Position numbers and translations under genes: made by a program. A stretch of 64,000 nt of DNA from Candidatus Poribacteria bacterium (GTDB taxonomy: Bacteria > Poribacteria > WGA-4E > WGA-3G): positions 6,002 through 70,001 of the forward strand of contig JAPPFM010000032.1 of assembly GCA_028821605.1 (NCBI GenBank), given 5' to 3'. The notes below the pieces were generated by a model, which worked only from the letters and a program-made list of their open reading frames with translations, ran no database searches and was not told the DNA's origin. Every line of letters begins with the position of its first letter. Within the stretch, counting starts at the first letter, position 1. Below are positions 42,982 through 56,528 of this stretch, in pieces.

Positions 42982-43827
42982 TTATCGGATTGGAAGGACA
43001 CCACTCTGCTCAAGATCGACTTGGATCAACCGATAGCATTCATCTACAAAGTTGACTGTTTCGTCATAAGCATTTTGACAGAAGGCAATAATTTCGGTGT
43101 TAGCAGAATCTGTGTTAGGAGCAAAAAAAGAATTGTGAAAGTGTAATTTTGGAACTGAAGGAGCACCTGATAAGGAAATTGGAGATGAGGAAACCATCAC
43201 ATCATCTATATCGTCATGCACTAACTTGTTCCTGATTTCCCTCGCGATATTGAACACAGAACCTGTTTTGTCCGGTTTTCCATCCTGATCTATCGCGTGA
43301 AAGGTACATAAATGAGCAGTTAGGGTTCCGTTTGGTGTTTTGTTTGCTAATTCTTGACGTATTTTATAACTGAAACGATCATCTTGAAGCAAGTCGTAAA
43401 TGATGTTAATAATCCTCACTACGCAGTCCTCAGAACCGACCAAATTTGAAAAGAACCCGTTTAAAATAATAAAAACAATCAATGCGGACTTCTCGCGCAA
43501 GATGGAGTTAGTGTTCTCCAATAACTTAATTTGTACCTGAACCGAACCGTCATCCGAAAAATCAATAAATGGTTTTAGTGGTGAGACCATTTTTGATTCT
43601 GTAGATGGAGGAGCTTGAATTTTCAGGTAGAAATCGGAGTCCATGCGTTCTATTAAATCCAAATAAAACTTTGCAGCGTTGGTTCTCTGTTTAGTTGTTG
43701 GAATCAATTTCTGAATTTTAGATTCAACGGTTCGCTTCGTTAACCCTACAGAATTTTGAATTTTCCCGTTCGCAGCAAAGTCTTCAATTTTCTGAAGGAG
43801 GCTGGCTTCATGCCCTAAATTTACCAT
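42982..43827 (-). CDS. HEPN-like protein, partner of the nuclease-STAND protein
   Basis: A 281-aa mostly helical protein with no close family recognised. Near residue 199 the segment REIRNKLVHDD contains R-N-x-x-x-H (Arg199 to His204), the motif of HEPN RNases and HEPN nucleic-acid-binding domains. Residues 20-60 have a helix pair (SVGLTKRTVESKIQK, TKQRTNAAKFYL) that could bind nucleic acid. The ATG overlaps the TAA of the upstream nuclease-STAND gene by 7 bases (43821-43827), a tight coupling suggesting a joint function. Known HEPN proteins occur as toxins, abortive infection effectors and sensors; which applies here is inference. It could also be a structural partner with no enzymatic activity. 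Confidence 0.55.
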   Translation of the reverse strand: MVNLGHEASLLQKIEDFAANGKIQNSVGLTKRTVESKIQKLIPTTKQRTNAAKFYLDLIERMDSDFYLKIQAPPSTESKMVSPLKPFIDFSDDGSVQVQIKLLENTNSILREKSALIVFIILNGFFSNLVGSEDCVVRIINIIYDLLQDDRFSYKIRQELANKTPNGTLTAHLCTFHAIDQDGKPDKTGSVFNIAREIRNKLVHDDIDDVMVSSSPISLSGAPSVPKLHFHNSFFAPNTDSANTEIIAFCQNAYDETVNFVDECYRLIQVDLEQSGVLPIR

Positions 43828-46800
43828 GCTTCCCCTTCCAGAAATTCTTCATCTTCCTGAGCCTGTTTTTCAATATCTTGCTCTGTCATTTTTATCAGAT
43901 CTTCGGCAAATTCCGTAACAATCGGTGATTGTGTCTTATCTCGGAGTGCTTTAAGGTCTTTGATACGTTTCAGAAGATGCGGTGCAGGATCGCCGAAGTT
44001 TCTTGAGTAAACCCCCGAATACAATGCAGCGACTATTTCACCTTGTGCCTGTTTGTCGCCTGTGCTTTTTATGAGAATCGACTCTGCAAGTGAATAAAAG
44101 ACTGGATCCGCGTCGAATCCCCTCATCAGATAAGCGACTTCTCTTATCAGTTTTAAATCATCTGAGCCTATCCACTCCTCAAAGAGTTTTCGCATTACCG
44201 GATTAATTTTGATCTCATCATTGCGTGGGTCGTTTCCACTGAGCATAGACACGAGCAGGTTGGGTGCCTCAAATCTCAAGAGGTTTGAGGACGTAAGCAC
44301 CCAATCTCTCACGCGTCTTAAAGCGTCCATTGCCTTTTCATCACTCCAATCAACATCCTCAAAAAGATAGTGTAGTCGATGCGGAACCGCGTCAAACTTT
44401 AACAAGTCTCGTGGACGATCCGAAAATGAATCGTAGCGTTCAGATTCGTTCTCTTTGTAAGCAATGCGCCTCTCAAAAAATTTGATAACCCAGATCGGCT
44501 CATGTCCGAAGATAGTGTGAAGTGCTTGTTCAGCCTCAGAATCAATACGTTCTAAACGGACACAATTAAGCATCACCTGTTTGTATTTTTCTAAGTGATT
44601 TTGTGGTGAGAATTTGAATTCTTTACTGGTGAGTGCGTGGATGACTTGCCTCATAACCATAGGTGATTCATCACTTGATAATCTTACCAAAATCTCAAGG
44701 ACAGCATTCGCATCTACGACATAGAAGTTCGGCAGGCTTTCGGCTATATACAGCCGTAATTTCGGGTCTAGCGTTTTAGACAATTGATCTAAAATGGCCA
44801 GATCTTCTTTTCCAATGTATCCCTCTGTTTTGCTTCTCCAGAAATAACTCCCTACAATAATGCGTTTGGCAAAAATGGTGTTCTGATCTAAGAGACGGTG
44901 AGTTGCTTCGTTACCTTTATCTTTGTTGACATAGCGAATACCACTGAGCAATCCAGCGGCACAATGCGATTCCTCTGTCTCCCACGCAAGGATATAGTCT
45001 AATAGATCAGAACCGTAAGAGGGGTCGAGTTCACCGATAGATTGCAGCAGCGATGTTGCGGTTCCCGGATTCCACCCTTTTTCTGCCCAGATGCTGTCTC
45101 TATTACCGCGATACTCCTTGTCTCTTTCAGCAATCTGTATACATTCTTGCATTAGGTTTGAGAGTTGTGCCGGTTTGTATTTCTTAATATACTTTTCCAA
45201 AAACACTTGCGTTTGCTCATCACTCTCCCTCATTTTCCAGTTTTGGAATTTTCCAGTAAATTGACGATGGAAAAGATACCTTTCATAGTTCTCATGTTCT
45301 CCGAATGTCGCGAGCAATTCTGCTGCCTTCTTTTTCGGAAAACCTTCTAAATAGGTATTCTCTGCATATCCGTGCAGACACCGATCTATCGCGTTCAGAA
45401 TAGTAAAATCGGTCTCTTTTGATATTTGATAGGTTAATATATTGAAGAACCGCGCCTGCTCTTCTTGTAAAAGACCCTGTTCCTCTTCTGAAATTCCCTG
45501 TCGAAATGGGCTCTCCAAAGGATTTATCGCCCGACTGATAGAGCCTATTGCTTCCGTTTTGACGATACTATGTTGAGACGTTTTCAAGCAATGCTCAATT
45601 AGATCAATCGCCTTCGCCCTGAGGCGGGTTAATTCAGGTGTATATGTTAAATGGTGCCAACCAAACTTCAAAGAACCACCTTCACTGACAGTTTCACTGA
45701 AGTCCAGCACCAGAAGTGAGTCGAGGGCGTTGAGTAGAGCCATGCTCAGTTGCGGTTTATCTTCCGTTTTCCATACCTCAAACACTTCAAGCACTTTAGT
45801 TTGAAATACACCGGGTTTGCTCGTTTGGAAGCCTGCCATCCTTTTCAATAATTCTTGCGGTGAGTCATAATTGGGGAGCTCCAAATCATTCATTAGGAGA
45901 AGTTTTCGGACTGTTTCCAGCGTCTTTATAAATCCAGAGAGTGTATTGACAGTTTTCTGTGTTTCTTTGGCAATTTTCTTCACCACGTCCTGATGGGTCC
46001 GTGTGGATGTCCACGCTGTATAGTGCTCCATCGAGTCTTCTTTAGGGGCATCCAAAATAATATTGAAAATATCAATTGCATCATCCGGACGAAAGTAACT
46101 GACCCCTTCCATCTGTTCCAGAATATCCATCCGAACAAAGTTATCACCTTCCTGGGCCCGAGTTTTAAGTGAGGCGACGTGTTCATCAAGAAGGCTTTTT
46201 TCACCAACAATGTTCTCCACGCGAGCGAGATTGATGACCACCTTAATAGGAAGAAGTGGTAAAAATTCTTTCAACAGGTTTTTGTGAAAAGAAGACCTTC
46301 TCCCGTTGGAAAGGAAACATACTTTCCGTAAAATATAGTCACTAAGTGCATCAGGAAAGACTCGCTGTTTCGCCCCGTACTGAAAAAGTAAACCATCGGT
46401 TTTCAGATCATCGCGATACTGCTCTACCTCATAAGGTTCCACTTTGAGAATCTCTGCCAATTTATCGCGTATTTGGTTATTTTCTATGTCAATCGGTGTA
46501 ATCCCGCTAAGCCACTCAAGCAATTTCCGCCGCCGCTCGCTGGATTCTGGATATTTTTTAAAGTTGTCGTTTAGGTAGGATTCAAAGGTAAGTTCGATTA
46601 ATTTATCTTTTGTTAAGTCCTTTAGCGGACCAATATCTTCATTAACGAAGTCTATCACCATGACAGCGATTAACGGTGTGTCCCGCGCGATCTTCGCCAA
46701 TCCCGTCAACATAGCATTGTCGGGAATTCGCGTATGGGTGTGGATAAATTCCTTCGTTCTTTCCAGAGAGAGTTTCCCGATTTCAAGTTCATTAACAGCA

Positions 46801-47744
46801 TTATCTGGTAAGGCAGTTCGGAAACTACCCTCCAAAAACGCTTTGAACGGCTTCCGAGTTATGAGCACTGCTTTGGATTCACTATATCCGGGACTATTCA
46901 AGAGTATTCTGATACCGCCGAGATTGTCAAGAAAATCATGCGCATCATCTACAAAAAAGATATACTTACGGTTGGGTGGAATGTCTGCTAAAGCATTTTC
47001 AAAACTGTCGCCAGCCATCTGAACAAAAAGTTGCTCATAATCGGTGTGGTCCCGTTCAACTGTCTTGGCAAACTCAATAGAGAGCTTGGTTTTTCCAATG
47101 CCCCCGCTACCGTATATCATGAGAAGTCTTTTTTCTCGATTTTGAACAAAGGCTTGAAATTGGCTAACTTCATCCTCACGTCCGAAGGTTTCATAGTCGT
47201 ATCTTAAAAGTTGATGTTTGCCCGCAATTTGATTTCGGAATATGTCCTGCCAAGGAAGAAATACAGATAGATGGGGATCTCGGAATGAATTTAAAAGGTA
47301 TGGAAACGCATCGGTCATTGTGATGAGATCTTCGGCATCCCAACATGTCAACGAAAAGTTATAGTCTTTCTCATTTTTAGCATCTTCAATTTTACGCTTG
47401 TTTCCTGCAGTAAGCAAGGTGTTAGTCATGAGGACGTAGTGGTCACATTGCAGCGCATCGGCTTTGTCGAGTTCACCTTTTTTTCGTTTGCCACCTTTCA
47501 TCTGGGAAATGAGTTGACTACGGGCGCGTCCCTTATCCATTGTCGGGTCAAAGAATTTATATTGGAAGACCCAGGTGCCCTCTCTATTCTTATAAACGCC
47601 GGTGTAGTCTGCGTCAATTCCGCCATCGCGCCCTGGCGCGTCGTAAACTTTTACGAAGGAAGACACTTCTTTTTTCAAGAACAGATTGCAGAATCGATCG
47701 AAATCGTCCTTTGATTTTATGTAGTCTAATAACTCTTTTTTCAT
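43821..47744 (-). CDS. PD-(D/E)XK nuclease-STAND NTPase, antiviral-type (Avs-like)
   Basis: A 1307-aa protein. Residues 1-150 have an Mrr-like restriction endonuclease core: GRDGGIDADY (Asp44) and VFQYK (Q61-Y-K63) form the D-(x)n-Q-x-K arrangement. Residues 205-310 form a NTPase with Walker A YGSGGIGKTK (211-220) and Walker B YIFFVDDAHDF (261-271). The next 900 residues are helical, with segments that look like irregular HEAT/TPR repeats. This nuclease-NTPase-repeat layout is that of STAND proteins in phage defence such as Avs and some restriction systems. ATG at 47744 follows GAGGAAACT. It would start a bicistronic operon with the HEPN-like gene. It lies divergent from the wHTH gene at 47975. 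Confidence 0.8.
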   Translation of the reverse strand: MKKELLDYIKSKDDFDRFCNLFLKKEVSSFVKVYDAPGRDGGIDADYTGVYKNREGTWVFQYKFFDPTMDKGRARSQLISQMKGGKRKKGELDKADALQCDHYVLMTNTLLTAGNKRKIEDAKNEKDYNFSLTCWDAEDLITMTDAFPYLLNSFRDPHLSVFLPWQDIFRNQIAGKHQLLRYDYETFGREDEVSQFQAFVQNREKRLLMIYGSGGIGKTKLSIEFAKTVERDHTDYEQLFVQMAGDSFENALADIPPNRKYIFFVDDAHDFLDNLGGIRILLNSPGYSESKAVLITRKPFKAFLEGSFRTALPDNAVNELEIGKLSLERTKEFIHTHTRIPDNAMLTGLAKIARDTPLIAVMVIDFVNEDIGPLKDLTKDKLIELTFESYLNDNFKKYPESSERRRKLLEWLSGITPIDIENNQIRDKLAEILKVEPYEVEQYRDDLKTDGLLFQYGAKQRVFPDALSDYILRKVCFLSNGRRSSFHKNLLKEFLPLLPIKVVINLARVENIVGEKSLLDEHVASLKTRAQEGDNFVRMDILEQMEGVSYFRPDDAIDIFNIILDAPKEDSMEHYTAWTSTRTHQDVVKKIAKETQKTVNTLSGFIKTLETVRKLLLMNDLELPNYDSPQELLKRMAGFQTSKPGVFQTKVLEVFEVWKTEDKPQLSMALLNALDSLLVLDFSETVSEGGSLKFGWHHLTYTPELTRLRAKAIDLIEHCLKTSQHSIVKTEAIGSISRAINPLESPFRQGISEEEQGLLQEEQARFFNILTYQISKETDFTILNAIDRCLHGYAENTYLEGFPKKKAAELLATFGEHENYERYLFHRQFTGKFQNWKMRESDEQTQVFLEKYIKKYKPAQLSNLMQECIQIAERDKEYRGNRDSIWAEKGWNPGTATSLLQSIGELDPSYGSDLLDYILAWETEESHCAAGLLSGIRYVNKDKGNEATHRLLDQNTIFAKRIIVGSYFWRSKTEGYIGKEDLAILDQLSKTLDPKLRLYIAESLPNFYVVDANAVLEILVRLSSDESPMVMRQVIHALTSKEFKFSPQNHLEKYKQVMLNCVRLERIDSEAEQALHTIFGHEPIWVIKFFERRIAYKENESERYDSFSDRPRDLLKFDAVPHRLHYLFEDVDWSDEKAMDALRRVRDWVLTSSNLLRFEAPNLLVSMLSGNDPRNDEIKINPVMRKLFEEWIGSDDLKLIREVAYLMRGFDADPVFYSLAESILIKSTGDKQAQGEIVAALYSGVYSRNFGDPAPHLLKRIKDLKALRDKTQSPIVTEFAEDLIKMTEQDIEKQAQEDEEFLEGEAW

Positions 47745-47974
47745 TGGAGTTTCCTCTCAGTGCCCGCAGAAAGTGGCATGGTGGAACAGATACATCTTCT
47801 CAAAAATAAAAATAGACTTTAGCATACCAGCAAGGCTTCATAACAACATATTAGCACATTTCAAGGCAAAAGTCAAATCGTTTTGCTAATGAAGTTTGAG
47901 GATTTGGTAACCTTTGACAAAAACGCCTCCTTCTGATAACCTAATGGCAGAATTGACTGAATAAGGAACGAACA
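47745..47974. other. Divergent gap between defence operon and terminase module
   Basis: 230 bp with promoters for both sides. A good TTGACA (about 47918-47923) with TAACCTAAT-like -10 lies on the plus strand before the wHTH gene. I see no operator repeat that could be tied to either gene. Confidence 0.4.
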
Positions 47975-48475
47975 ATGCTAAAGCGTTATTGGCGAAGTTT
48001 CCAATTAACCTTTGAAGATAGGAGTACTGCTATAGGCTATGAAGTAAAACGACCCAACCGCGAAACAGTTGTCCGCGTCAATTTTCCCCTAAAATCGCCA
48101 ATCGAAGGCAAAACACTCAACAGTATTGAAGAAGCACTTAATCTCGAAGGCGTGAAATCCTTCCAATGGTTGCCCTCAATAGCCTGGAATATCTCTAAAG
48201 ATGGAACATTTTACAAATATCACGCCGACCCAAACCAAGACATTACCATCCCCAACCAACTCACACGCAGAGAGAAATTTTTATACGCACTCCTAAAACT
48301 CAACCACGCCCTACCCAAAACAATCCTCATAGACTGGTTTAAGACGGACACAGCAGTTGAATCCCATATCTCCCGTCTACGCAAAAAAATCAAACCACTT
48401 GGCGAGCACATACGATTTAAAGAAAAAACCTACATATTGGAAAATACTGGCAAAAATAAAATTAATAAAAGTTAA
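47975..48475 (+). CDS. Winged-helix protein, possible regulator of the terminase module
   Basis: A 166-aa protein, first in a plus-strand run ending in the terminase gene. The C-terminal half (residues about 95-160) resembles the OmpR-type winged helix: LPKTILIDWFKTDTAVESHISRLRKKIKPLGEHIRFKEKTYIL, where the S-x-I-S-R-L-R-K-K-I helix would be the recognition helix. The N-terminal half is beta-rich and unrelated to a receiver domain. An AAGGAACG sits before ATG 47975. Adenine-rich codon use differs from the neighbouring dehydrogenase genes. Function as regulator is inference. Confidence 0.6.
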   Translation: MLKRYWRSFQLTFEDRSTAIGYEVKRPNRETVVRVNFPLKSPIEGKTLNSIEEALNLEGVKSFQWLPSIAWNISKDGTFYKYHADPNQDITIPNQLTRREKFLYALLKLNHALPKTILIDWFKTDTAVESHISRLRKKIKPLGEHIRFKEKTYILENTGKNKINKS

Positions 48476-48627
48476 TAATTGCTATAAAATCCTATTATTA
48501 CACGGGATATTACCAACAAAACAAATAATTTTAAAAAATTTAATTTGACATTTATTCTGGCATTTGATATAATTAAACCATCACGCTTATGTAGCACAAA
48601 CTTTTAGTTTGTGGCATTTGCTCTTAA

Positions 48628-48657
48628 AGTCCCCCTGATAAGGCGGATTTAGGGGGT
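48628..48657. repeat. AGTCCCCCTGATAAGG hairpin unit, second copy
   Basis: The sequence CTTAAAGTCCCCCTGATAAGG followed by GGATTTAGGGGG repeats the unit at 30869-30898. It forms a CCCCC/GGGGG hairpin. Confidence 0.65.
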
Positions 48658-48764
48658 GAAAAAAAGCGCGGTAATCCAACAAAACACAATGTTCACACAA
48701 GATGCCTCTGTAATCCTGAAAATCCTTGAATCCTGAAAATCCTGATTCAGACAATGACAGAAAA

Positions 48765-49199
48765 ATGAATAATTTAACAACACACGCTTTAGCTTTTGGA
48801 CGCATCGGCACCGGCTACGCAGTCATTATTCGGAGCGGTGGGCAAAACACATACAGAATTTGCGAAAACGGTGTAATTCCACACGATCAGTTCTCGCCAC
48901 AAGGAGCACTCAATTGGTTCATCGAAAAACACGATCCCGACACTCTTTTTTTCGGGACGTACGAACCACTGGATACACCCGTCAAAATCCTAATGCTTAA
49001 AACAGATATTCCTGTCCATTCTATCCCGAAGCGCGAAGCAATCGCAGCAGGCACCAAAGCCGAGAAATACTTACCCAATTTTTACAAGCACGTCCACACA
49101 GACAAACAAGACCTCTGGACCGGATTCCATCTATATCCCTCACTACAAGCATTATGTGTCGCATTCAGCAGCGCATACTACGAGGAGCAAAAATCATGA
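48765..49199 (+). CDS. Small protein in the terminase module, unknown
   Basis: From ATG 48765 a 144-aa product with a beta-strand-rich first half (ALAFGRIGTGYAVIIR, NTYRICENGVIP) and a Ser/Lys-rich middle, SIPKREAIAAGTKAEKYL. I do not recognise it. It overlaps the following gene by ATGA, so translation is probably coupled. A resolvase-like or ribonuclease-H-like fold is possible given strand positions (HALAFGRIGTGYA, LFFGTYEPLDT), since phage Holliday-junction resolvases look like this; that is a guess. Confidence 0.5.
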   Translation: MNNLTTHALAFGRIGTGYAVIIRSGGQNTYRICENGVIPHDQFSPQGALNWFIEKHDPDTLFFGTYEPLDTPVKILMLKTDIPVHSIPKREAIAAGTKAEKYLPNFYKHVHTDKQDLWTGFHLYPSLQALCVAFSSAYYEEQKS

Positions 49200-49774
49200 A
49201 AAAACGAAAAACACTACCAAAATCCGAACCCTGGCATAAAGAATACTACAAAACACTTATCTGCCAACACGGACAACATAAAACAGCAATTAAAAAGGTA
49301 AATACAATTTTTCTCGAACTCCTCAACGTAGAAGATACAACGAAAAACCGTGAACTACTTGGTGGACGAATGCGAACCGTCAATCCAAATCGACCCGAAT
49401 GTGATCAGGAAACCAAAAATCAAATCCTACGCGAAATTGATAACAGATCTGCATTTTTACGCAGCGAACAAGACGCACGTCGGAGCAACGACCGACTTGT
49501 TTTAGACCAAATTATCGCCAAAACTAAAAATGCAGTATTAAATGCAGATTCAGAAAACTTTAACGTCCGAGATCTCATCAGCTTAATGGAACTCCAACTC
49601 AAAATCGACGAGCAGGAAGCAAAAATCCATGGACTCTTCAAAAACCATACAATCGACAACGAACCCACAAACGATTTTGGAGATAAACTCTCTGACGCGG
49701 CACAACTTCTCGAAAACACTTGCAAAACTAAAAGCACAGATCACCCAGAAGATCAAGATAGGACACACGACTGA
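49196..49774 (+). CDS. Possible terminase small-subunit-like protein
   Basis: A 192-aa protein, charged and helical (residues about 80-150 read as long helices with regular Lys/Glu spacing), starting with the basic MKKRKTLPKSEPWHKEYYKTL. It lies directly before the large terminase gene, the usual place for the small DNA-recognition subunit. It starts at ATG 49196 after GAGGAG, overlapping the previous stop by 4 bases. No sequence motif proves the function. The terminase frame (from 49629) overlaps its end by 146 bases, so one of the two boundaries may be different. Confidence 0.5.
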   Translation: MKKRKTLPKSEPWHKEYYKTLICQHGQHKTAIKKVNTIFLELLNVEDTTKNRELLGGRMRTVNPNRPECDQETKNQILREIDNRSAFLRSEQDARRSNDRLVLDQIIAKTKNAVLNADSENFNVRDLISLMELQLKIDEQEAKIHGLFKNHTIDNEPTNDFGDKLSDAAQLLENTCKTKSTDHPEDQDRTHD

Positions 49775-51494
49775 AGCTAAAACACTCGCAAAAAAAGTCA
49801 TGGGTCTCATCGAAATCTACGGATACGCGCATATTGACGTTTTCGCAAAGCATTTTCTCTCGCACTACATCACCACCGATTTCGCGCCGCATCACCTCGA
49901 AATCTTTGACTGTATCCCGCCCGGACACGTCGGACAGAAAAAGAACATTATCGCACCGCGCGGTTCCGCAAAATCTACCTGTATGGCGGTGATTTACCCC
50001 CTACATCGCATCTGCTACAAACATTATGACGAGACGATGGGCCACGACCCAGACCACTTTATTTTAATCCTATCCCGCACATATCCGATGGCGATCAGCC
50101 GTATCAAAGCGATCAAGTACGAATTGGAAACTAACGAAACCTTACGGACTTCCTTCGGAAACCTTGTTGGAAAAACGTGGGGGCAAAAAGAGATTGTGAC
50201 GAAAAACGGTATCTGTCTGAAAGCCATCGGGCGCGGAGGTCAAGTTCGAGGATCGCTGTTCCGCAACTTCCGTCCATCATTGATTATTTCTGACGACCTC
50301 GACGACCCCGAAACCGTAAACAATCCCGATGTCCGCGAAAAAGATATGTTATGGTTCGATTCGGACTTGATGCGTGCTGGTAGCCTTGACGGGACGACAA
50401 ACTTTATTAACATTGATACCATCAAGCACAAATCCTCTATCGCCAACGTCCTTCGCAACCGTCCGCAATGGGAAACACTTTTCTATCCAGCAATTTTGCA
50501 TCCAATAGAACTCTGGCATCCCACCGCAGAGCAGAAGTGGAAGCAGTGGGAAACTTTATGGACAGATATGTCAAAAGAGAAAACCCAGCGTATAGCAGAA
50601 GCAGACGCCTTTTATGAAGCAAACAAAGCCGAGATGCACGGTCCCGAAATCAAAGAACTTTGGCAAGAGCAAATCACCTATTTGGATGTCCGAAAAGAAA
50701 TTTGCGATGTCGGCTACTTTCCAGTGATGCGCGAACTTCAAAATAACCCCCGTGACCAAAGTCAAGCACTCTTTGATATGGAAAACGCACTTAGGTTCTC
50801 TATCGTCCCAGAAGGTTTTCTCAGAAACGACAAAATTTTGGTCAGGTGGGAAGAAATGAGCGGGGCAACAGTTTTCTTGGACTGGGCAGGCGGCAAAGAC
50901 CTCGCCGAAAACGCTTTTGCCGCTGTTGTCGGCGTTGTCTGGGTGCCTCTACCCGGTTCACGAGAAGAGAAAACCGATTCGCTCATGGGCGGCACAAACG
51001 GTTATGTCCTCTTTGATCATCTCGCGAAAGTCGGACCCACACAACAGATCGCTGCCTGTTTCGATATGATAGAAAAAATACGAGCAACAATCCCCACTCG
51101 CGATTTTTCCATACGTCTCGGTATTGAAGGCTTCGTGCAAGATACTTGGAACGCACAAAAACAGATGATCGAACAAGATTTTCGAGCACAGCGCGAGAAA
51201 CGAAATCAACGCGATATTCTTCTACACATTGAGTGGCTACCACGCCTAAAAAACAAATATGACCGCATTGACGCGCTCCAGCCGCCGATCTACAATCATT
51301 GGCTCGGATTCCACGACAGATTGAGCACGGAATTCATGGCACAAATGGCAGATTATCCAACCGGTGATCATCTGGATGCACCCGATGCCCTTGAAGGCGC
51401 ATGTCAATTGCGCGTATCAACATTCCAGAGCCAAAGAACAGCGCGACGAAACCAAGCACGCCAACGAAACAAAAATTTTAAAGTCAGGATATGA
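49629..51494 (+). CDS. Phage-type terminase large subunit
   Basis: Residue numbers count from ATG 49629. The ATPase has Walker A APRGSAKST (109-117) and Walker B LIISDDLDD (218-226). The nuclease region begins with FLDWAGGKD (first Asp near 418), and a later DHLDAPDALEGA carries the terminal Asp typical of TerL. The protein should cut and pump DNA into capsids if it works with a procapsid. An AGGAAG precedes 49629, but ATG 49800 would give a more usual N terminus and no overlap. No portal, capsid or tail gene lies nearby. The gene has adenine-rich codons, unlike its chromosomal neighbours. Confidence 0.85.
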   Translation: MDSSKTIQSTTNPQTILEINSLTRHNFSKTLAKLKAQITQKIKIGHTTEAKTLAKKVMGLIEIYGYAHIDVFAKHFLSHYITTDFAPHHLEIFDCIPPGHVGQKKNIIAPRGSAKSTCMAVIYPLHRICYKHYDETMGHDPDHFILILSRTYPMAISRIKAIKYELETNETLRTSFGNLVGKTWGQKEIVTKNGICLKAIGRGGQVRGSLFRNFRPSLIISDDLDDPETVNNPDVREKDMLWFDSDLMRAGSLDGTTNFINIDTIKHKSSIANVLRNRPQWETLFYPAILHPIELWHPTAEQKWKQWETLWTDMSKEKTQRIAEADAFYEANKAEMHGPEIKELWQEQITYLDVRKEICDVGYFPVMRELQNNPRDQSQALFDMENALRFSIVPEGFLRNDKILVRWEEMSGATVFLDWAGGKDLAENAFAAVVGVVWVPLPGSREEKTDSLMGGTNGYVLFDHLAKVGPTQQIAACFDMIEKIRATIPTRDFSIRLGIEGFVQDTWNAQKQMIEQDFRAQREKRNQRDILLHIEWLPRLKNKYDRIDALQPPIYNHWLGFHDRLSTEFMAQMADYPTGDHLDAPDALEGACQLRVSTFQSQRTARRNQARQRNKNFKVRI

Positions 51495-51515
51495 GAACCC
51501 AAATTACTATCCAAT
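51495..51515. other. Short stretch between terminase gene and repeat element
   Basis: Nothing recognisable before the inverted-repeat element begins. Confidence 0.3.
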
Positions 51516-51762
51516 ACTATAGTTTGGACAATTTCGGTCGGATTCATGCTCGGTTTTCAAGGGGGCTCTGATTTTTCTGAAAGTTCCTGACACAAACGCA
51601 ACTCACAGAAAAGTAAACTCGGATGCACAGAGTGGCAGCCCCAGCGGGGGTTTTTGATAGGGTGTTTCTTCAGTATGTCTATAGAAACGCCATACCTCCC
51701 TAAGATCCAAGCCCCAGCGGGGCGAAATGTGTATCTAAAAAAAATTTTCCAAAGTTTAGTAT
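51516..51762. repeat. MITE-like element with TTTGGACAATT ends (second copy)
   Basis: ATAGTTTGGACAATTT at the left end and AATTTTCCAAAGTTTAGTAT at the right end are near-complements. Inside are two AGCCCCAGCGGGG units (51637-51651 and 51710-51727), reversed relative to the units at 12503-12570. It lies at the right border of the accessory island. Confidence 0.7.
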
Positions 51763-51772
51763 TAGAAGTAAC

Positions 51773-51801
51773 TTGACAAAAACGTTTTCTGCTGTTAATC
51801 T
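51773..51801 (+). promoter_or_regulatory. Promoter of the four-gene Gfo/Idh array
   Basis: TTGACA at 51773-51778 and TAATCT at 51796-51801 are 17 bp apart and end about 30 bp before the first ATG (51834), which has AAGGAGAC upstream. It lies just outside the MITE. Confidence 0.6.
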
Positions 51802-51833
51802 GATACAACTTCGGATACTAAGGAGACACTTCC

Positions 51834-52877
51834 ATGTACAAAACTGCGATGTTAGGGTGTGGGGGGCGCGCCCGTGGGCACGCAGATGCGTATCGTTTCG
51901 TCAAACGCGGTAAGCTCGCTGCAATCTGCGATATGAACGAAGAACGACTCAATGGCTTCGGTGCTGACTTCGATATCCTATCCCGCTATACCGACTTAGA
52001 CGAGATGCTTGAAAAAGAGAAGCCCGATGTCCTGCATATCGTCACAAGTCCTGTGATTCCGAGTAGCAACGAACGGATCCGTTATCCGTTGATGAAACAG
52101 GCATCCGATCACGGCGTGCCAGCGGCGATTATTGAAAAACCGGCTGCTATTGAAGGCGAGGATTGGAAGCAGATTGCGGGGTTAGCAGAAGAGACGCAGA
52201 CGAAATTTGTCGTCAATACACAACTCAATTTCCACCCGAAAAACTTGGAACTAAAAAGAGATGTCGCAGCAGGACGTATCGGCGAGATTAGGTTTATTGA
52301 TGCTAGTGCACGTAGTAGATCCGCCGAGCAGGGAGGACATGTGCTACAGTTGGTGTCCTCTTACATTGACGACGCGCATCCGGTCCGGGTTCTTGGACAA
52401 ATCGCTGGCAGCGAGCATTTAAATTCTGCGGGTGGGCATCCCGGTCCGACACATGCTGCCGCTCAGGTTTTGTATGAGAACGGTGTCCATGTCTCTATTG
52501 CGTTTGGTACGGAGATGGCACAAATGGCATCCGATGACCCGGGTATCTACGGGCACAAACGTGTGCTTGTTGTCGGGACGAAGGGCTTTGTACATTGGCG
52601 TTTCAGCAGTTGGGAACGTTCAACATTGGACGGTGGCTATGAGAGCGGTCCACTGAACTACGGGGAGCAAGATGTTGTTGCACAGGCTAATTTCACCGAA
52701 GCTATCTTTGATTGGTTAGAAGATGAGAATAAGGCGCACCCGACGCATCTCAAACAGTCCCTCGTTGAGAATAACCTCATCTTAGGGATGTACCACAGCG
52801 GGATAACAAACGAGATTGTTGACCTCCCATTTGAACCACCTGATGGGTTAATGGATGCACTCCGAGAGAGGCTATAA
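51834..52877 (+). CDS. Gfo/Idh/MocA family oxidoreductase, array copy 1
   Basis: A 347-aa dehydrogenase: MLGCGGRARGHADAYRFV is the dinucleotide-binding loop, KPDVLHIVTSP and VPAAIIEKPAAIEGEDW follow with the E-K-P motif, then VVNTQLNFHPKNLELKRD and a beta-sheet domain ending NEIVDLPFEPPDGLMD. Compared with copies 2-4, the Gly/Ala-rich first loop has GRARG where the others have GRARA, and PAAIEG instead of PIAVES, so copy 1 is the most different. Probable role: oxidation of a sugar or a cyclitol. Confidence 0.9.
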   Translation: MYKTAMLGCGGRARGHADAYRFVKRGKLAAICDMNEERLNGFGADFDILSRYTDLDEMLEKEKPDVLHIVTSPVIPSSNERIRYPLMKQASDHGVPAAIIEKPAAIEGEDWKQIAGLAEETQTKFVVNTQLNFHPKNLELKRDVAAGRIGEIRFIDASARSRSAEQGGHVLQLVSSYIDDAHPVRVLGQIAGSEHLNSAGGHPGPTHAAAQVLYENGVHVSIAFGTEMAQMASDDPGIYGHKRVLVVGTKGFVHWRFSSWERSTLDGGYESGPLNYGEQDVVAQANFTEAIFDWLEDENKAHPTHLKQSLVENNLILGMYHSGITNEIVDLPFEPPDGLMDALRERL

Positions 52878-53086
52878 AACGTTAACCTACATTTTTTCCT
52901 GTTAAGCAATCTTAGGTTTTGAGGAAGTGTGGAAGAGGAGGAAGATTGGAAGAAATACCGTGTTTGCTGTCTTCCGAACTTTCAGACTTCCAACTTTCCA
53001 ACGCAATTGGGACTGCAAAACTTGAATGTTAAGACTTATACTTGCTTAACCCATTTTCGCTAATAGTATTTTAAGGAGATATTTTT
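52878..53086. repeat. Spacer duplicated with the dehydrogenase gene (copy A)
   Basis: This 209-bp spacer is almost identical to 54131-54337. It contains GGAAGTGTGGAAGAGGAGG and the complementary CTTCCAACTTTCC stretch, and ends in AAGGAGA-type ribosome-binding sequence. It moves together with the gene as one duplicated unit. Confidence 0.85.
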
Positions 53087-54130
53087 ATGTATAAAACTGC
53101 GTTCTTAGGGTGTGGGGGTCGTGCCCGTGCGCATGCAGATGCCTACCGCTTCGTCAAACGCGGTGAAATCGGCGCAATCTGCGATATGAATGAAGAACTC
53201 CTCAACAGTTTCGGAGACGACTTTGGAGTTTCGTCGCGTTATACCGACTTGGACGAGATGCTTGCAAAGGAGAAACCGGATGTGCTTCACATCGTCACTG
53301 CCCCGGTGCTGCGCGGGACCAATCAACGTATTCGGTACTCACTGATGAAACAGGCATCCGATGCGGGTGTTCCAGCAGCGATTGTGGAAAAGCCGATTGC
53401 CGTTGAAAGCGAAGACTGGAAGCAGCTTGCCGGATTAGCGGAGGAGACACAAACGAAGTTTGTCGTTAACACACAACTCAACTTCCACCCGAAAAACTTG
53501 GAATTGAAGCGAGATGTCGCAGAGGGCAGGATTGGTGAAATCAAGTTCATCGATGCCAGTGCGCGCAGCACCCCTGTCGATCAGGCACCTCATGTGTTAC
53601 AGCTCGTTTCGTCCTACATCGACAACTCGCGTCCGGCGCGAGTGCTCGGGCAGGTTTCTGGTGCTCAGGATTTGGATTCCACGCAGCCTTCCCCTATGCA
53701 CGCTGCTGCGCAAGCGCTATATGAAAACGGGCTTCACGTCTCTCTTGCATTCGGGACAGGTGTAGGGCAGAAAGTGCCAAAAGAACCGGATGCGGGGAAT
53801 CACACCCACAAACGCGTCTTTGTCGTTGGAACGAAAGGATTTGTGCACTGGCGGTTTAGCAGTTGGGAACGCGCAACACCGGAGGGGGGTTACGAAAGCG
53901 GTCCGCTCGACTATGGAGAGCAGGATGTCGTCGCACAGGGTAACCTCACCGAAGCCGTTTTCGATTGGTTAGATGATGAGAACAACCAGCATCCGACACA
54001 TCTCAAGCAGTCGCTTGCAGAGTTTAACCTGCTTTTAGGAATTTACTACAGTGGTGTAACAAATGAGATTATAGATCTACCATTTGAGCCGCCCGATGGA
54101 TTGATTGATATACTCCGGGAGAGGCTATAA
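53087..54130 (+). CDS. Gfo/Idh/MocA family oxidoreductase, array copy 2
   Basis: A 347-aa paralogue of copy 1 with the same motif order (FLGCGGRARAHADAYRFV, IVEKPIAVESEDW, QLNFHPKNLELKRD, LPFEPPDGLID). A two-residue-longer loop near residues 222-232 (TGVGQKVPKEPDA) separates it from copy 3. Start at ATG 53087 behind AAGGAGATA. Its substrate is unknown. Confidence 0.9.
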   Translation: MYKTAFLGCGGRARAHADAYRFVKRGEIGAICDMNEELLNSFGDDFGVSSRYTDLDEMLAKEKPDVLHIVTAPVLRGTNQRIRYSLMKQASDAGVPAAIVEKPIAVESEDWKQLAGLAEETQTKFVVNTQLNFHPKNLELKRDVAEGRIGEIKFIDASARSTPVDQAPHVLQLVSSYIDNSRPARVLGQVSGAQDLDSTQPSPMHAAAQALYENGLHVSLAFGTGVGQKVPKEPDAGNHTHKRVFVVGTKGFVHWRFSSWERATPEGGYESGPLDYGEQDVVAQGNLTEAVFDWLDDENNQHPTHLKQSLAEFNLLLGIYYSGVTNEIIDLPFEPPDGLIDILRERL

Positions 54131-54337
54131 AACGTTAACCTATATTTTTCCTGTTAAGCAATCTTAGGTTTTGAGGAAGTGTGGAAGAAGAGGAAGGTTG
54201 GAAGAAATGCCGTGTTCGCTGTCTTCCGAACTTCCAGACTTCCAACTTTCCAACGCAATTGGGGCTGCAAAACTTGAATGTTAAGACTTACACTTGCTTA
54301 ACCCATTGTCGCTAATAGTATTTTAAGGAGACCTTTT
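54131..54337. repeat. Spacer duplicated with the dehydrogenase gene (copy B)
   Basis: The 207 bases match 52878-53086 almost throughout, differing at scattered positions and by a few short indels. The spacer after copy 3 (55376-55490) is different, so that duplication has another history. Confidence 0.85.
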
Positions 54338-55375
54338 ATGTATAAAACAGCGTTCTTAGGATGTGGCGGTCGCGCCCGCGCACATGCAAGTGCCTACCGT
54401 TTCGTCAAACGCGGCAAAATCGCCGCAATCTGCGATATGAATGAAGAACTCCTCAACAGTTTTGGAGATGACTTCGACGTTTCCTCACGCTACACCGACC
54501 TTGATGAAATGCTTGAGAAAGAGAAGCCGGATGTCCTCCACATCGTCACTGCACCAGTGCTACGTGGGACGAGTGAACGTATCCGATATCCGTTGATGAA
54601 GCAAGCATCCAACCACGGTGTTCCAGCGGCGATTGTAGAAAAGCCGATTGCTGTCGAGAGCGAAGATTGGAAGCAGATTGCGGGGTTAGCGGAAGAGACG
54701 AAAACAAAGTTTGTCGTCAATACGCAACTCAACTTCCATCCACAAAACCTTGAATTGAAGCGGGACGTCGCAGAAGGACGTATCGGCGAGATTAAGTTCA
54801 TTGATGCAAGTGCGCGCAGTACGCCCGTTGATCAAGCACCGCATGTGCTGCAGTTGGTGTCCTCCTATATTGATAACTCGCGTCCGGTACGGGTGCTGGG
54901 TCAAATCTCGGGGAGAGAGCAATTAGACTCAGCGCAGCCGTCTCCCATGCATGCCGCTGGACAAGCCATATATGAGAACGGTCTCCACGTCTCTCTTGCG
55001 TTTGGCACCGGTATGGGAACATTGGCATCGGATAGTGAGAGCACTGTTGCGCATAAACGTGTATTTGTCGTTGGAACGAAAGGATTTGTCCACTGGCGTT
55101 TCAGCAGTTGGGAGCGTGCAACCCCAGAGGGTGGCTACGAAGGCGGTCCACTGAACTATGGAGAACAAGATATTGCTGCGCAAGGCAACCTCACGGAGGC
55201 GGTCTTTGATTGGCTCGACGATGAGAACAACGTACACCCAACGCATCTCAAGCAATCACTTGCGGAGTTTAACCTCCTCCTCGGTCTTTACTATAGTGGA
55301 ATAACAAACGAGATTATTGATCTCCCGTTTGAACCACCTGATGGCTTGATGGATTCGCTTCGAGAAAAGTTGTAA
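54338..55375 (+). CDS. Gfo/Idh/MocA family oxidoreductase, array copy 3
   Basis: A 345-aa paralogue with FLGCGGRARAHASAYRFV, IVEKPIAVESEDWK, QLNFHPQNLELKRD and LPFEPPDGLMD. It is closest to copy 2 in its first half and to copy 4 in features such as HPQN. ATG 54338 follows AAGGAGA. Confidence 0.9.
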   Translation: MYKTAFLGCGGRARAHASAYRFVKRGKIAAICDMNEELLNSFGDDFDVSSRYTDLDEMLEKEKPDVLHIVTAPVLRGTSERIRYPLMKQASNHGVPAAIVEKPIAVESEDWKQIAGLAEETKTKFVVNTQLNFHPQNLELKRDVAEGRIGEIKFIDASARSTPVDQAPHVLQLVSSYIDNSRPVRVLGQISGREQLDSAQPSPMHAAGQAIYENGLHVSLAFGTGMGTLASDSESTVAHKRVFVVGTKGFVHWRFSSWERATPEGGYEGGPLNYGEQDIAAQGNLTEAVFDWLDDENNVHPTHLKQSLAEFNLLLGLYYSGITNEIIDLPFEPPDGLMDSLREKL

Positions 55376-55490
55376 ACGCTGACAGGTATAGCGGCAGGTG
55401 AGACATCATCCTGCCGCAAGTTATCCTATATTTTTCTACTAACTTTCATTTACCTTGGTTTGACATCAAAATATTAAAGGAGATATTTCT

Positions 55491-56528
55491 GTGTATAAAA
55501 CCGCAATGTTAGGGTGTGGTGGCCGCGCCCGTGCGCACGCGGATGCCTATCGCTTTGTCAAAGGTGGTAAGCTCGCTGCAATCTGCGATATGAACGAAGA
55601 ATTACTCAATAAATTTGGAGACGATTTTGGTATCTCTTCCCGATACACTGACTTGGACGAAATGCTTGAAAAAGAGAAACCTGATGTCCTCCATATCGTC
55701 ACAGCACCGGTGCTGCGGGGTAGCAACGAGCGCATCCGTTACCCGCTCATGAAACAAGCCTCGGATGCAGGTGTTCCGGCAGCGATTGTGGAAAAACCGA
55801 TTGCCGTTGAAAGCGAGGATTGGAAACAAATTTCGGGACTTTCCAAAGAGACGAAAACGAAATTCGTCGTCAACACACAACTCAACTTCCACCCACAAAA
55901 CCTTGAATTAAAAGCAGATGTGGCGGCAGGACGTATTGGTGAGATTAAGTTCATTGATGCAAGTGCGCGGAGCACACCTGTTGACCAAGGTCCGCACGTG
56001 TTGCAATTGGTGTCTTCCTATATTGACAACTCCCGTCCGGTGCGGGTACTCGGTCAGATTTCTGGTGCTGAACACTTGGATTCAGCGCAACCCTCACCGC
56101 AATATGCGAGCGCGCGCGTCCAATACGAGAACGGGCTTCATGTCTCTGTTGCGTTCGGGACAGCCATCGCCCCGACTGCGTCCGACGATCCGGTTGTCTT
56201 TTTCCACAAACGCGTTTTTGTCGTTGGGGTTAAAGGTTTCGTGCATTGGCGGTTCAGCAGTTGGGAACGCTCAACCCATGAGGGCGGTTATGAAGGCGGT
56301 CCACTCAGCTATGGAGAGCAGGATGTCATCGCACAGGGCAACCTCACAGAGGCAGTTTTTGATTGGTTGGATGATGAGAGCAAGGTACATCCGACCCATC
56401 TTGAACAGTCGCTTGCAGAGTTCAATCTGCTTTTGGGAATTTACTATAGCGGTATCACAAACGAAGTGATTGATCTCCCATTTGACCCACCGGATGGACT
56501 GATGGATAAACTGAGAGCCAAGCTGTAA
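55491..56528 (+). CDS. Gfo/Idh/MocA family oxidoreductase, array copy 4 (GTG start)
   Basis: A 345-aa paralogue beginning with GTG (55491) behind AAAGGAGATA. Motifs are as in the other copies: MLGCGGRARAHADAYRFV, IVEKPIAVESEDWK, QLNFHPQNLELKAD, LPFDPPDGLMD. Its 3' flank has no sibling spacer. It precedes the first LamG gene by about 100 bp. Confidence 0.9.
   Translation: MYKTAMLGCGGRARAHADAYRFVKGGKLAAICDMNEELLNKFGDDFGISSRYTDLDEMLEKEKPDVLHIVTAPVLRGSNERIRYPLMKQASDAGVPAAIVEKPIAVESEDWKQISGLSKETKTKFVVNTQLNFHPQNLELKADVAAGRIGEIKFIDASARSTPVDQGPHVLQLVSSYIDNSRPVRVLGQISGAEHLDSAQPSPQYASARVQYENGLHVSVAFGTAIAPTASDDPVVFFHKRVFVVGVKGFVHWRFSSWERSTHEGGYEGGPLSYGEQDVIAQGNLTEAVFDWLDDESKVHPTHLEQSLAEFNLLLGIYYSGITNEVIDLPFDPPDGLMDKLRAKL

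Follow-up and report, generated by a model that had tools for sequence, protein, structure and literature searches.

Lone terminase cassettes in Candidatus Poribacteria: an insertion beside a STAND NTPase gene and its relatives in the phylum

Genes and promoter of the insertion

The window, meaning the whole stretch of 64,000 nucleotides that was analysed, corresponds to contig C32:6002-70001 of genome G000, a 6.0 Mb draft of a sponge-associated Candidatus Poribacteria in 60 contigs. An insertion of ~3864 bp (~3.86 kb) is located at window 47957..51820 on the plus strand. It consists of a wHTH ORFan, a repeat spacer, the genes gene2-TerS-TerL, and a 3' spacer. All four plus-strand ORFs described in the initial annotation were present, and the last of them was confirmed as a large terminase subunit (TerL).

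The TerL gene (49629..51494, plus strand, an ORF of 621 aa) encodes a predicted ATPase and nuclease. It matched phrog_38 'terminase large subunit' of PHROG over residues 31-610 (E=6e-59). The Walker A motif (APRGSAKST), the Walker B residues (DD), and the acidic residues D418, E500, D583, and D586 are invariant in the 11 aligned copies; both the ATPase motifs and the RNase H-type nuclease residues of a large terminase are present. As judged from these residues, the TerL of the window is real and intact. Its similarity to relatives starts only near residue 44-65, so that the gene may in fact begin at 49629 or at ~49800. The named relatives, with 39-59% identity, are Candidatus Poribacteria MAGs. 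The best annotated phage matches were found in Pseudomonas phage JBD26 and Faecalibacterium phage Mushu (25-27% identity over 90% of the protein), which are Mu-like transposable phages. A PDB profile search with TerL gave nothing useful.

The TerS-like gene (49196..49774, plus strand, 192 aa) has 42-45% identity to a gene of genome G069. An ATGA overlap between two genes, reported previously, was located at 49196-49199, where it joins the stop of gene 2 to the start of the TerS-like gene. The structural model contains a small helical N-terminal domain and a long helical hairpin (pLDDT 78-95, residues 1-100). Family searches with the gene gave no match, and fold searches with the model gave no significant match. 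The gene is named TerS-like by its position upstream of TerL and by the predicted helices.

Gene 2 (48765..49199, plus strand, 144 aa) has a conserved counterpart in just one other orphan module, with 40% identity to G069:C256:502-957. Its start was corrected by homology to ATG 48765, replacing TTG 48726. The predicted structure starts with a beta-beta-beta-alpha arrangement of low confidence (model pLDDT 46). Family searches gave no match for gene 2, and no relatives were found among viral contigs.

The wHTH ORF (47975..48475, plus strand, 166 aa) begins at the left junction, behind a promoter-like stretch that precedes the MocA-like gene in the empty loci, and is ~290 bp apart from gene 2. 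Its C-terminal winged helix weakly resembles Trans_reg_C of Pfam (E=0.0024, below the cut-off), and no homolog was found in 84 genomes of the phylum. The wHTH ORF is thus outside the conserved unit, which by sequence comparison is gene2-TerS-TerL. The four-gene module proposed at first was rejected because this ORF is an ORFan; the order of the other three genes recurs in G069.

A perfect sigma70 promoter of the three-gene unit (TTGACA-17-TATAAT) was matched at 48545..48573 on the plus strand. It is the sole perfect TTGACA-(16-18)-TATAAT in the window on both strands. The leader that follows (48574..48764, plus strand, ~190 nt) consists largely of dispersed poribacterial repeats, as found by sequence comparison. 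The terminator hairpin of the relatives is absent from this leader, and so the window cassette may be constitutively expressed.

The insertion contains no recognisable integrase or replication gene and no known packaging site. The window contains no tRNA, and an Rfam search of it gave no match. The whole contig C32 has no portal of this family, and no structural-gene cluster was found in C32:1-110001, which agrees with the earlier statement that other phage genes are missing. The portal, capsid, tail, and integrase genes of a complete prophage were not found near TerL at this locus. The gene content shows a cassette that is evidently phage-derived, inserted with no accompanying structural or lysis genes and no integration genes that could be recognised.

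The empty site and the neighbouring genes

The homology between C32 and contig C24 of the same assembly ends at window 47956 and restarts at 51821 (blastn). In C24, the STAND-type gene directly adjoins the first MocA-like gene; in C32, there are 3864 bp in between. Terminase-free versions of the locus were aligned in eight places, one on C24 and seven in other species (G004, G005, G009, G012, G020, G030, and G075), with ~230 bp separating the defence gene and the oxidoreductase gene in these seven. The alignments show that the terminase module was gained at C32 as one discrete insertion, and a simple chimera is ruled out because C24 and the seven species have the empty arrangement. This argument holds on the seven other species alone, without C24. 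A misassembled junction had been considered in the initial annotation; simple misassembly does not explain the junctions, since the empty locus is matched to the left as well as to the right of the insertion.

The right-junction promoter-like stretch resembles the left one mainly in the TTGACAAAAAC core, and a target-site duplication is not claimed. As a possible second empty site, for G039:C142, G036:C52 was compared with it; synteny between the two stops exactly at the end of a dnaE-like gene. About 30 kb is present twice in the assembly (window 32300-64000 versus G000:C24:30860-60000, ~85% DNA identity). This C24/C32 repeat is either a segmental duplication (paralogs) or a second strain in the bin.

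The left neighbour, outside the insertion, is an AAA/STAND NTPase gene (43821..47744, minus strand, 1307 aa; AAA_16, 5.7e-8), which is conserved in 14 genomes. It is accompanied by an adjacent gene of 281 aa. The N-terminal part of the NTPase (residues 13-267) has a weak match to PADLOC PDC-S73 (7.5e-12). From these matches, it looks like an unclassified Avs-like defence gene. The right neighbour, also outside the insertion, is the first of the tandem Gfo/Idh/MocA-like oxidoreductase genes (51834..52877, plus strand), which was named by sequence pattern. Four related oxidoreductase genes (345-347 aa) are in tandem at window 51834-56528, and the homologous region of C24 has five.

Related cassettes and structural modules in the phylum

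TerL was found in 9 of the 84 phylum genomes, in 15 copies. Phylogenetic analysis placed the poribacterial TerLs in one clade (support 100/100), in which the window copy pairs with the G069 orphan (support 96/89). The orphan and portal-linked copies are intermixed in the tree, so that the phylogeny did not assign the window TerL to a complete prophage, as had been considered at first. G069, of another genus, carries gene 2, TerS (45%), and TerL (58%) arranged as in the window, and the genes next to them are not phage genes; the G069 contig begins just 0.5 kb upstream of the module.

Most poribacterial TerLs are orphans. A copy was counted here as orphan when the contig extended 5 kb or more to each side of it and there was no portal in the vicinity. 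There are about nine such loci in five species, with invariant catalytic residues: the window, G036:C54, G036:C60, G036:C32, G038:C14, G038:C30, G039:C142, G039:C39, and G080:C161. The insertion sites differ between genomes. Several of the loci are near restriction-modification or other defence-type genes, which differ from locus to locus. In G036 and G039, the DNA similarity between copies is limited mainly to TerS-TerL and the leader. This survey of genome sequences shows lone cassettes of the TerL clade at many chromosomal sites in the phylum. However, some of the orphans could be pieces of large prophages, because a TerL cassette with an orphan-type leader on G039:C123 is ~8.5 kb from a portal. 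On G036:C32, TerL and a portal share the contig, ~88 kb apart. Portals from three families were looked for, and G038, G069, G070, and G080 have none. The omega among close TerL copies is 0.09-0.19, and these low values may partly date from selection in phages before capture. The phrase 'orphan terminase' was not found in the papers searched.

The leaders of the orphan cassettes were compared with those of other genes. Perfect promoters precede 4/12 orphan cassettes vs 7/~407 other genes (p=1e-4). When one mismatch was allowed in the promoter and a strong intrinsic terminator was required after it, 6/11 orphan cassettes had such a leader vs 0/113 other genes; the p-value of 1e-7 is optimistic, because this test was devised after the G036/G039 leaders were seen. 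The random control set contained 116 genes, and its only three matches were TerS genes themselves. The portal-linked TerS copies of this genus (C24 and G017) have neither a promoter nor a terminator leader. The most interesting feature is the recurrence of lone TerS-TerL cassettes with promoter-terminator leaders, mostly outside the window.

The G036/G039 hairpin (AGCCC...GGGCTTTTTTT) has five pairs preserved through two-sided changes, although the overall covariation term is not favourable. In both G036 and G039, this TerS-leader hairpin is also present upstream of a likely capsid gene, and G036 has one further copy. The capsid gene was named by position only, and a PDB profile search with it gave nothing useful. 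The TerS leader and the likely capsid gene may respond to one signal, as their shared hairpin suggests. Another similar hairpin, recognised by eye, is shared by the TerL leader of G070 and the structural module of G046.

Portals were found in 6/60, one weak match included. Searches of IMG/VR and of phage records gave no relative of the poribacterial portal. On C24 of G000 and in G017, the cluster that surrounds TerL is phage-like and includes a P22-type portal and ejection-like genes. The C24 TerL is 59% identical to the window TerL, and its cluster, which includes a tail-fibre-like gene, is cut by the contig end. This prophage-like module is the putative helper of the window cassette. An SU10-type adaptor is present in the G017 cluster; none was found in G000. 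The structural module with both the P22-type portal and the SU10-type adaptor is located at G017:C2:157003-178376, and related clusters are present in G036, G039, G046, and G024. Glycosyltransferase-like genes recur near the phage-like structural modules. The terminases of JBD26 and Mushu share phrog_38 with the window TerL. Unlike those Mu-like systems, the poribacterial portal is P22-like and the adaptor SU10-like, and the TerLs group in a clade of their own with good support.

Another type of lone terminase was observed at L149:5836-9551 and L150:5842-9638 (L150 from Vampirovibrionales). These loci contain a D12 DNA adenine methylase, a ParB-N protein, and TerL, with a TerS-like ORF between the last two in L150 only. 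Single-domain integrase-like ORFs are nearby, and no portal-like gene was seen within several kb.

Possible roles of the cassette

The best explanation, with a probability of about 0.4, is that the packaging cassette has become detached and serves, in trans, capsids produced elsewhere, in a satellite- or GTA-like manner. TerS would recognise the site where packaging starts, within the cassette or close to it. TerL would cut the DNA and pump it via the portal of a capsid from another locus, such as the C24 module, or from a helper phage. The cassette would thereby redirect packaging to its own DNA. In the relatives, the promoter-terminator leader might silence the terminase until an antitermination signal permits read-through, as at a phage late promoter, and this read-through may couple packaging to capsid production. 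The lambda-type late leader (pR'-tR', with antiterminator Q) has a strong promoter, a short leader, and an intrinsic terminator before the late genes. The poribacterial orphan leaders share this layout; however, no antiterminator was identified, and the window copy has no terminator.

A satellite or domesticated packaging unit was already suggested in the initial annotation. The discrete insertion, the recurrent orphan loci, and the cassettes' own promoters are consistent with such a unit, but its satellite part is weakened by the lack of an integrase, replication gene, and packaging site. Like PICI/cf-PICI, PLE, P4-like, PICMI, VEIME, and Tycheposon elements, which are helper-dependent, the cassette is chromosomal and keeps packaging genes apart from a complete phage. 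The packaging genes of satellites are TerS, or TerS and TerL in cf-PICIs; the poribacterial cassette has both subunits and no capsid genes. Capsid and portal genes accompany the terminases of cf-PICIs and Streptomyces satellites, and cf-PICIs also carry connectors (PMC10690885). No genes that redirect packaging were identified in the PICMI study (PMC10803314). The poribacterial insertion differs from satellites in its ~3.9 kb size and in having no recognised integrase, replication, or regulatory genes. The TerS-like and TerL genes might redirect a helper capsid, as the packaging gene of a PICI-type satellite does; the integrase and attachment sites of such a satellite were not found, as the insertion has no integrase ORF and the window no tRNA.

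Gene-transfer agents (GTAs), e.g. RcGTA, have genes at several loci. The poribacterial genes resemble them in that phage-derived packaging and structural genes are at separate loci, possibly under common regulation (the G036/G039 hairpin). GTAs are typically vertically conserved, whereas the poribacterial TerL is patchy and its sites change, the portal is similarly sparse, and any transfer by the poribacterial genes is putative. A wider proposal is that there is a class of poribacterial terminase-only elements (promoter, leader RNA with terminator, TerS, and TerL), scattered over the chromosome, switched on by one signal together with a capsid module at another locus, and packaging chosen chromosomal regions in trans, either as a split multi-locus GTA-type system or as packaging-only satellites. 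This proposal is doubtful. The leader RNA might even join in packaging.

The main rival of the in-trans cassette is a neutral phage fragment, namely a terminase region captured by recombination or left from a decayed prophage, with no present function. It is the likeliest alternative and a real possibility, although we do not favour it. The sparse, strain-specific distribution, the different site in each genome, and the dispersed repeats adjoining the insertion are all consistent with such a fragment, and phage decay does occur in the phylum, as shown by the portal pseudogene pieces in G036. However, the TerL copies are full-length and stop-free, except for a contig-end fragment in G027, and the retained piece is repeatedly the TerS-TerL unit. 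The promoter-terminator leaders, far enriched over other genes and missing where TerS is portal-linked in this genus, also argue against a neutral fragment.

It is unlikely that the cassette is a domesticated anti-phage or superinfection factor, in which a lone terminase disturbs packaging by related phages through dominant-negative or competing TerS/TerL. The defence-type genes near several orphan loci and the constitutive-type promoters of the cassettes are consistent with such a role. But those genes vary between loci, so that there is no conserved defence partner, and the catalytic residues are invariant, though a blocker need not keep them.

It is very improbable that the cassette serves the neighbouring STAND NTPase as a decoy or trigger; a decoy working beside the divergent defence operon was suggested in the initial annotation. 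The NTPase adjoins the module in the window, and Avs1-4 were reported to recognise the large terminase or portal (PMC12931631). However, a recurrent pairing was not found: the defence gene is present in 14 genomes and TerL in 9, with both only in G000. The homologous C24 site is terminase-free, and a trigger with constitutive expression, if sensed, would be toxic to its own cell. The decoy as a conserved pairing is therefore largely refuted. An assembly artefact joining phage and host DNA is hardly credible even for a draft of 60 contigs, since in eight places both flanks align with a single uninterrupted empty locus, since they rejoin in register, which those of a chimera would not do, and since the three-gene unit is present among non-phage genes in an independent assembly (G069).

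A lone match to TerL, a widely used phage marker, need not indicate a prophage. If the in-trans cassettes work, a packaging motor by itself can be mobile, or be retained by the host, as a unit that selects the DNA for particles, apart from the capsid genes. Phage satellites and gene-transfer agents would then include a minimal form, and an uncultured phylum of sponge symbionts would have a route of DNA exchange.
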